The notes under the pieces: generated by a model
Database searches by the model: none
What the model saw: the letters and a program-made list of their open reading frames with translations, nothing else
Told to the model about the DNA's origin: nothing
Made by a program: the position numbers and the translations under genes
Part shown: piece after piece, positions 11,204 through 39,111 of the stretch
Position numbering within the stretch: the first letter of the stretch is position 1
How the letters are laid out: each line of letters begins with the position of its first letter
Virus record (IMG/VR): IMGVR_UViG_3300037882_001100
Location: 1-39,111 of that record
Reading direction: 5' to 3' (one strand)
Origin: a virus
DNA: 39,111 nt

Positions 11204-11911
11204 ATGAATATCTTAGAACAAAACATTTCCCTTATCCATTGCACACACTTTGTGGATGGTCGAGATACAGACCTTATGCCTGTGGCTGCTGCCCGTGTAT
11301 CCTTTGGTAATGACGCCAACGTAGGTAAAGACCGAGAGGGTGATAAGAAGCTAACCAACTATCTGGCTAAGCATAAGCACCTATCTCCATTTGAACATCA
11401 AACCGTAGGCTTTAAGATTGAGTGCCCTATCTTTGTTGCGCGGGAGTGGATGCGTCATCGTAGCCAAGCCTTCAACGAGATTAGCCTCCGTTACACTGAC
11501 AAGACCATTGGTGACTTCTGGCTCCCAGAAAAAGGTTGGCGTATGGCAGGTGGAACCAATCGACAAGGTTCTGGTGCTGTTGTAGGGGATGCTCAGACCA
11601 ATGAGGGTCTTGACGCTATTGCCATTGCTGCCTATGAGGCTGCTGAGAAAGCTTACTTCGCTCTATTAGAACGTGGTATTGCTAAGGAGTTAGCCCGTAT
11701 CGTTATCTCTGTTGGTCACATGACAGAGTTCTATGCTACAGCTTCTCTGCGTAACTGGGCTGCTTTCTGTATGCAACGCCTAAGCCCTCTAGCTCAAGAG
11801 GAGATTCGTGTCCTCGCTGAGAAAGTGGACTTCACACTTAATGCCTTGTACCCTGATTCTTGGGGTGCATTGAAAACCCATTTCATTGGAGATACCCATG
11901 AAACAGCCTAG
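11204..11911 (+). CDS. thyX: Flavin-dependent thymidylate synthase ThyX
   Basis: 235 residues. The ThyX signature RHR-x7-S is present in full: R84-H85-R86, then S94 (RHRSQAFNEIS), with the upstream His-rich segment LAKHKHLSPFEH. ThyX methylates dUMP to dTMP using methylene-tetrahydrofolate, NAD(P)H and FAD, and works as a tetramer. The length matches the family. In phages it boosts dTMP supply for replication. It overlaps the next gene by 14 bases. Confidence 0.95.
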   Translation: MNILEQNISLIHCTHFVDGRDTDLMPVAAARVSFGNDANVGKDREGDKKLTNYLAKHKHLSPFEHQTVGFKIECPIFVAREWMRHRSQAFNEISLRYTDKTIGDFWLPEKGWRMAGGTNRQGSGAVVGDAQTNEGLDAIAIAAYEAAEKAYFALLERGIAKELARIVISVGHMTEFYATASLRNWAAFCMQRLSPLAQEEIRVLAEKVDFTLNALYPDSWGALKTHFIGDTHETA

Positions 11912-12689
11912 AATCAGCTTCTTTGATATTGAGTCTTCTCATAATCTAGTAGCTACCTTCTCCCTCTTTAAGCCTATCATCCCACATGGTGCTATCCTCA
12001 AGGAGCGTCACATTATTTGTGCCTCTTGGAAGTATGCTGGTTGTAAGACTGTGCATAGTGTATCCCTGCTGGATGACCCTAAGCGCTTTAAGAGAGACCG
12101 TAGCGATGACTTTATTGTCATTAAGGCTATCCATGAGATGCTTTCTAATACAGACATTCTCGTAGCCCACAATGGTGATAGATTTGACTTGCGCTATTTC
12201 AATACACGGGCTTTGTACCATGGGCTTCCTCCTATCGGGAAGATTACCACGGTGGATACCTTGAAGGTTGCTCGTCGTTACTTCAACTTCAACTCTAACC
12301 GCTTGGATTATATCGGTGGCTATCTTGGCGTAGGCCGTAAGACCCATACGTCCTTGGATATGTGGTTGGCTATTATTGACCCTCAGCGTTCAATAGAAGA
12401 TGCAGCAGCAGCTATTCTCAAGATGCGTCGCTACAACCGAAACGACGTACGCCTTCTGGAGGAAGTGTATTATAAACTACTACCTTACACAATTAACCAC
12501 CCTAACGTAGCGAATTTTATTGACACGGATAAACCAGTATGCACAAGATGTGGTTCCTCAAACCTGCAAAAGAGAGGTTTCCATACCACAGTTGGCGGTA
12601 AGAAGCAGCGTTATGGCTGCAATGACTGCGGTGCTTGGAGTCTTGAACGTGCTGTTGTCTCTAAATCAGTCCTTACAAAGGAGTCATAA
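11898..12689 (+). CDS. DEDDy 3'-5' exonuclease with C-terminal zinc ribbon
   Basis: 263 residues from ATG 11898, with GGAGA 5 bases upstream (TTG 11886 is a less likely start). RNase H-like exonuclease motifs: FFDIES (D10, E12), AHNGDRFDLRYF (N92, D97) and YNRND (Y179, D183), so all DEDDy residues are present. The C-terminus has CTRC (215-218) and CNDC (241-244), a zinc ribbon that may hold nucleic acid or a partner. It could act as a separate proofreading or processing nuclease beside the polymerase. Exact substrate unknown. Confidence 0.85.
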   Translation: MKQPRISFFDIESSHNLVATFSLFKPIIPHGAILKERHIICASWKYAGCKTVHSVSLLDDPKRFKRDRSDDFIVIKAIHEMLSNTDILVAHNGDRFDLRYFNTRALYHGLPPIGKITTVDTLKVARRYFNFNSNRLDYIGGYLGVGRKTHTSLDMWLAIIDPQRSIEDAAAAILKMRRYNRNDVRLLEEVYYKLLPYTINHPNVANFIDTDKPVCTRCGSSNLQKRGFHTTVGGKKQRYGCNDCGAWSLERAVVSKSVLTKES

Positions 12690-13136
12690 ATGCTGAAACA
12701 CAAACATCTAATCCTCGCCTTTGATTGCTTTAATCCGCCAGCTAAGGCAGCTGAAGCTGTATCCTTCCTAGAAGACATCATTCGTCTCGTGGATATGAAC
12801 ATTGCAAAGGCTGATACTATGCCATCTAATCCCCAAGGCTATCGCTGCGACCTCCTCGGTAACGAGGGAGTGACTGCTGTGGGTATCCTTGAAACAAGCC
12901 ATACGGTTATCCATACATGGGACTTAGCTGAAACTGGTAAGATTCAGTTTGACCTCTACTCCTGCAAAGAGTTTGATGTCCAACAAATCATCAACTTCTG
13001 CAAAGACCGCTTCGGTATCCGCAATGGCTCCTACATCATCTTGAACCGCGAGAGCGTATTAGAGATTGAAGAAAAGGGCTTCCTCGGAAACGATGGTGTT
13101 GTTACCCACGTTTATCACCCAACATTTATGCTTTAG
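12690..13136 (+). CDS. speD: S-adenosylmethionine decarboxylase homologue (SpeD family)
   Basis: 148 residues from ATG 12690 with AAGGAG. It has the core of pyruvoyl-dependent AdoMet decarboxylases: TSH-x3-HTW with S70 (future pyruvoyl), H75 and C92 (YSC). In bacterial class 1B enzymes the proenzyme cleaves itself between Glu and Ser of ESH; here the residue before Ser is Thr. Two extra residues lie between HTW and the Cys motif. Decarboxylated AdoMet feeds spermidine synthesis. Some SpeD homologues are instead ornithine or arginine decarboxylases. A metabolic gene carried by the phage. Confidence 0.8.
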   Translation: MLKHKHLILAFDCFNPPAKAAEAVSFLEDIIRLVDMNIAKADTMPSNPQGYRCDLLGNEGVTAVGILETSHTVIHTWDLAETGKIQFDLYSCKEFDVQQIINFCKDRFGIRNGSYIILNRESVLEIEEKGFLGNDGVVTHVYHPTFML

Positions 13137-38933: not shown

Positions 38934-39111
38934 AGAAACGCTGGATGAGCTAACCTCTATATTTCATAAATACGGAGGTAATGGTTGGCGCATAGTTACA
39001 TATCAGCCAGAGGCCGCCTATGCCGCCGTCATCGCAAGCAAAGAGGTGCGCGAGTTGGTGGAGGCTGCTCTGAATATGAGTGAAATTGTAGAGATTCATG
39101 CAAGTCATATA
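38920..39111 (+). CDS. Hypothetical protein, N-terminal part (continues at base 1)
   Basis: ATG 38920 opens a frame that runs off the right end. The last 99 bases repeat bases 1-99 in frame, so the gene continues to the TAA at 172-174, giving 88 residues in total. The N-terminus KPSKETLDELTSIFHKYGG is helical and basic. No family is recognised. Confidence 0.72.
   Translation, partial: MKPSKETLDELTSIFHKYGGNGWRIVTYQPEAAYAAVIASKEVRELVEAALNMSEIVEIHASHI
39013..39111. repeat. Terminal direct repeat (right copy)
   Basis: Identical to bases 1-99. It should be counted once in a circular map of 39,012 bp. Confidence 0.95.

Follow-up and report, generated by a model that had tools for sequence, protein, structure and literature searches.

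The window, as the whole stretch of DNA analysed is called here, comprises 39,111 nt and corresponds to the entire IMG/VR record IMGVR_UViG_3300037882_001100. Because an exact 99-base repeat is present at both ends (1–99 and 39013–39111), the 39.1 kb record is probably a complete phage genome. Podovirus-like signs include a head-tail connector (PF12236) and an internal virion protein, and the source is probably an uncultured, podovirus-like tailed phage of ~39 kb. The locus contains, in order, genes for a primase-helicase, a DNA polymerase A, a DUF3310 protein, a small ORF, ThyX, an exonuclease and a SpeD homologue (Table 1). The TAA of the exonuclease gene directly abuts the ATG start codon of the speD-like gene. 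ThyX thymidylate synthase lies two genes before the SpeD homologue, and two small ORFs on the same strand follow it on the 3' side, the shorter of which has the appearance of a membrane protein.

Table 1. Features at and around the speD-like locus (window coordinates)
Feature	Position	Strand	Evidence
ThyX thymidylate synthase	11204..11911		PF02511 7e-42
DnaQ-like DNA polymerase exonuclease subunit	11886..12689	+	phrog_403 3e-68
AAGGAG, Shine-Dalgarno-like, just 5' of the speD-like ATG	12678..12683	+	sequence
SpeD-family pyruvoyl-dependent decarboxylase, HTVC201P type (predicted arginine decarboxylase, SpeDA), 148 aa	12690..13136	+	PF02675 1e-12; clade with HTVC201P 100/99; AlphaFold2 pLDDT 89.9; Z 12.2 to T. 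maritima AdoMetDC
Thr69-Ser70 cleavage junction; Ser70 = predicted pyruvoyl source	12894..12899	+	alignment column table
His75, processing/catalytic His (T. maritima H68)	12912..12914	+	alignment column table
Two-residue insertion, residues 81-82	12930..12935	+	in 31/31 sampled clade members; absent from AdoMetDC-type and ornithine-type rows
Cys92, catalytic Cys (T. maritima C83)	12963..12965	+	alignment column table
Small ORF, 59 aa	13145..13324	+	no PHROG match
Small ORF, 107 aa	13327..13650	+	no PHROG match

The encoded protein matches Pfam PF02675 with 48.7 bits (cut-off 25) and phrog_3125 with an E-value of 1.3e-13. Judged from its sequence, it can beyond doubt be regarded as a class-1b SpeD homologue, the homology being beyond chance. 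TIGR03330, the model for bona fide Bacillus-type AdoMetDC, gave 34.9 bits, below its cut-off of 75.65, a failure that might also befall a divergent phage AdoMetDC. The AlphaFold2 model shows the AdoMetDC fold and is similar to T. maritima AdoMetDC (1TLU), with an rmsd of 2.4 over 110 residues. The T. maritima query sequence was checked against PDB entry 1TLU and gave a near-maximal score. Kinship with phage SAM lyase (PDB match with Z 6.0–6.4) was also considered and rejected: the score lies under the level of kinship, and the pyruvoyl Ser/His/Cys triad points to a SpeD enzyme.

The protein was compared column by column with 31 fellow members of its clade, 28 viral ornithine-type (Gln-Thr-Phe-Tyr) sequences and 16 AdoMetDC-type sequences, of which four are proven enzymes, namely those of T. 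maritima and of phages S-PM2, phiYS40 and P2559S (PMC9992855). The original prediction had described a protein with its catalytic Ser, His and Cys retained, a Thr-Ser cleavage junction and a two-residue insertion after HTW, and all three observations were borne out by the alignment. S70, H75 and C92 align with S63, H68 and C83 of T. maritima. The residue before the pyruvoyl Ser is Thr69. All 31 clade rows share this Thr, and all 16 AdoMetDC-type rows have Glu; the position is also Thr in all 28 ornithine-type rows, this Thr having been part of the pattern with which those rows were collected. The insertion follows HTWD; every one of the 31 clade rows has it, and the 28 ornithine-type and 15 AdoMetDC-type rows all lack it. 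Because the HTVC201P enzyme and all other sampled clade members carry both, the Thr-Ser junction and the insertion are lineage marks and no oddity of this phage. The prediction had also taken the junction Thr as a possible sign of changed substrate. This Thr is indeed common to the ornithine and arginine SpeD groups, but it marks a lineage and is not peculiar to this protein. The clade as a whole is characterized by the signature HKH...GN.G.T...[E/D]TSH...H.W(D)...Q.D.Y[ST]C, and the window protein shares ~25–39% identity with viral and chromosomal representatives of the HTVC201P-type group.

Residues typical of AdoMetDCs are replaced in the window protein. Compared with class-1b T. maritima AdoMetDC, with which it shares the fold (Z 12.2) and the processing residues, the Glu before Ser, the HTWPE motif, Phe49 and Glu72 are all changed: F49 (Phe in 16/16 AdoMetDC-type rows) is Arg52, E72 (Glu in 13/15) is Leu79, and the Pro of bona fide AdoMetDCs, taken as the Pro after H.W, is Asp78. 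Position 79 is, by its spacing from the catalytic His, equivalent to human Glu247, a residue in contact with the ribose of AdoMet. The loss of the Glu79 equivalent (Glu72 in T. maritima) thus makes the use of AdoMet less likely.

A maximum-likelihood tree was calculated from 79 rows and 124 columns. Placed in this way against the AdoMet-, ornithine- and arginine-decarboxylating groups, as the original prediction had proposed, the window protein lies inside a 32-row clade with the arginine-decarboxylating HTVC201P enzyme (support 100/99), apart from both the ornithine group and the AdoMetDCs. Its branch is long (1.35) and without a close relative, the best identity over the tree columns being 41%, and its position within the clade is unsettled. 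Forced grouping with AdoMetDCs was rejected by the AU test (p = 0.031), and forced grouping with the ornithine group was not (p = 0.155). The insertion columns, in which only about 40% of the rows have a residue, had been left out of the tree, so the insertion is a separate marker for the HTVC201P side. Placement among AdoMetDCs sharing the Thr-Ser junction, the outcome that would have contradicted a changed enzyme, was not observed, the AdoMetDC-type junction being Glu in every row. Residues, tree and modelled fold together lend good support to the prediction that the protein self-processes and would be no AdoMet decarboxylase. Sinorhizobium phage phiN3 also encodes a SpeD homologue, but with an Asp-Ser junction and without the insertion; it groups with the ornithine type in the tree though it is a proven AdoMetDC (PMC9992855).

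Phage SpeD homologues without AdoMetDC activity have already been described (PMC9992855). The enzyme of pelagiphage HTVC201P (AXH71538) decarboxylates arginine alone and not AdoMet, with a kcat/Km of 290 per M per s. Ornithine is the substrate of five further phage homologues, one of which decarboxylates arginine to a comparable degree as well, dual ornithine/arginine activity being reported for phage UCP01 (PMC9992855). The window protein shares with HTVC201P the Thr-Ser junction, the insertion, the HKH start and the GN.G.T, H.WD and Q.D.Y.C motifs, although the two are only ~30% identical. The placement of the gene after a DNA polymerase and an exonuclease gene is also shared, and the DNA polymerases are homologous (28%). 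In contrast, homology between the two exonucleases is not detectable, and the ribonucleotide reductase gene that directly follows in HTVC201P is lacking after the speD-like gene of the window. Comparison of the genes that occupy the exonuclease position in the window, HTVC201P and HTVC115P likewise did not support a common ancestry.

The reading judged probable is that the window gene encodes an HTVC201P-type class-1b SpeD, a proenzyme of 148 aa that would cleave itself between Thr69 and Ser70, with Ser70 converted to the pyruvoyl cofactor. The processed enzyme would decarboxylate L-arginine to agmatine, from which host enzymes would make putrescine and then larger polyamines during infection. 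This polyamine supply may benefit the phage. The original prediction had named compaction of phage DNA as a possible role of polyamines; for spermidine, a role in translation is stressed in the literature. A search of the 39.1 kb window for genes of spermidine synthase, agmatine deiminase and arginase/agmatinase found none. Family, fold, processing residues, clade membership, loss of AdoMetDC-typical residues and exclusion from the AdoMetDC placement are established. Within the clade, arginine activity has been measured for HTVC201P only (PMC9992855), by analogy with which arginine is the most likely, predicted substrate of the window protein. Of the original proposal that the enzyme had changed substrate, the non-AdoMet substrate is therefore supported, but the change is not a new one, since an enzyme of this kind is known from the arginine activity of HTVC201P (PMC9992855).

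An ornithine decarboxylase of the pyruvoyl-dependent, SpeDC-like kind, or a dual ornithine/arginine enzyme as in phage UCP01, is unlikely. SpeDC enzymes (PMC10407285) share with the window protein the SpeD fold, the Ser/His/Cys residues and the Thr before the pyruvoyl Ser, and this common Thr, the AU result of p = 0.155 and the precedent of a proven phage homologue that takes both substrates (PMC9992855) speak for such an activity. However, Gln, Thr, Phe and Tyr are the published markers of the ornithine group, as a gamma Pro is of bona fide AdoMetDCs (PMC10407285), and at these four positions, inferred from spacing as the text of PMC10407285 gives none, the window has Gly65, Thr69, Thr76 and Gln86, so that Thr alone matches. 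The translated viral matches of a DNA pattern built on the inferred positions were SpeD homologues. Furthermore, the window protein has the insertion and W77, Q86 and Y90 of the HTVC201P type, all lacking in the ornithine type, and the unconstrained tree sets it apart from that group. SpeDC identity was thus rejected on three of the four diagnostic residues, the AU test alone leaving p = 0.155.

Returning to the HTVC201P-type reading, the window protein departs from its own clade at several positions: E79L (Glu in 29/31 relatives), P82T (Pro in 31/31), Ala in place of R10 (26/30) and Arg in place of Y52 (26/30). HTVC201P itself keeps the E79, P82 and R10 equivalents. The loss of Glu at 79 may leave room for a further change of specificity, and along its long branch the enzyme could have moved to a further substrate or to dual specificity, in another retrograde-evolution step of SpeD. 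We consider such a move quite improbable: the catalytic triad and the remaining signature are intact, Glu81, two residues on, could replace Glu79, and the changes occur in no relative, so that they carry no sign of selection.

No SpeD homologue was present at 80 loci linked to the window through the neighbouring exonuclease, or in 20 viral records linked to it through portal or exonuclease, which suggests that the gene was individually acquired by this phage. For the same reason, no ortholog set for dN/dS exists. A near-match search among phage records gave no DNA match to the window, and no match to the gene was found among plasmids. A single-protein query (P0001) matched only five distant viral relatives, and a phiN3 query matched phiN3 alone. 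The isolated long branch and the lack of the gene in those 20 records, from which it looks dispensable, would suit a decaying or non-enzymatic copy without processing, yet the ORF is intact with a Shine-Dalgarno-like site, all processing residues are kept despite low overall identity and the predicted fold is confident, making decay very unlikely. The best reading is thus a divergent new representative of the known HTVC201P-type arginine decarboxylases, in a phage whose sampled relatives are without the gene.

A scan with the group profile confirmed at least 566 HTVC201P-type relatives in IMG/VR. Among 84,980 bacterial and archaeal genomes, 18 HTVC201P-type loci were found, some on viral-looking contigs (L302, L314) and some chromosomal. 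In an alphaproteobacterial MAG (L312, 7884–11790), three genes follow the SpeD homologue: a member of the deoxyhypusine synthase family, with 1,9-bis(guanidino)-5-aza-nonane synthase as its best-matching model, then aguA and aguB. These neighbours are agmatine- or putrescine-using genes, and the cluster resembles those reported for arginine-decarboxylating speDA genes (PMC10407285). No second SpeD homologue was found in this MAG, in which one PF02784 gene is present, and the cluster is well suited to a test of arginine decarboxylation. PF04371 (aguA-type) was found in five of seven related gammaproteobacterial genomes, with aguB adjoining in the single one inspected. Each of these genomes has one PF02784 gene (in G010 as two fragments); those of G011 and Ca. 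Thioglobus G005 were typed and are both lysA. Ca. Thioglobus G005 also has two arginase-family genes, one of which scores above the agmatinase model cut-off. Neither OKR_DC over cut-off nor PvlArgDC was found in the carrier genomes, and the missing pathway step in these bacteria is arginine decarboxylase; the genomes are incomplete, so these absences are weak. The location of chromosomal relatives beside or alongside agmatine-processing genes supports arginine decarboxylation in the HTVC201P-type group. At the two loci that were read, L307 and L310, the SpeD homologue and a spermidine-synthase-like gene are divergently oriented. An ordinary AdoMet decarboxylase for spermidine synthesis, with which the SpeD family and fold and the adjoining spermidine synthase of some gammaproteobacterial relatives would agree, was rejected as highly improbable on residues (the conserved Pro and the F49 and E72 equivalents), tree placement and AU test, and also in view of the proven relative HTVC201P, which has no AdoMetDC activity (PMC9992855), and of the second, class-1a-like AdoMetDC in four gammaproteobacterial carrier genomes.

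Other SpeD arrangements were encountered in the same material. Among 119 viral contigs that carry a SpeD gene of the ornithine type (QTFY), fourteen have a second speD, of the Glu-Ser-His type, immediately beside it in the same orientation (L101, L106, L114, L123, L133, L152, L163, L165, L180, L197, L207, L210, L211 and L215), and these tandem pairs are apparent phage modules for putrescine and decarboxylated AdoMet. In the record of Microcystis phage MaAM05 (L095, MW495066.1, 1–2594), speB, speE and a pair of SpeD homologues stand consecutively; the unusual motif FFFDVFSC occurs in the first of the pair, whose branch lies just outside the two substituted groups. Small gammaproteobacterial genomes contain 216-aa class-1a-like AdoMetDC paralogues (L335–L338; LNESHISFHSYFEN) that score far under the TIGR03331 cut-off. 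In addition, a Rhodospirillales MAG has an HTVC201P-type SpeD fragment at a contig end (L317, G016:C425), together with a bona fide-type speD adjoining a spermidine-synthase-like gene.

Overall, the original finding is correct and is mostly explained by published work; its value lies in a divergent, non-pelagiphage member of the group and in the pointer to chromosomal relatives with a clear pathway context. What appeared to be an altered cleavage site is a trait by which a large group of phage enzymes can be recognized as one lineage. The HTVC201P type now extends beyond pelagiphages, to a phage with different neighbouring genes, and the chromosomal relatives are a possible bacterial source of the phage genes.
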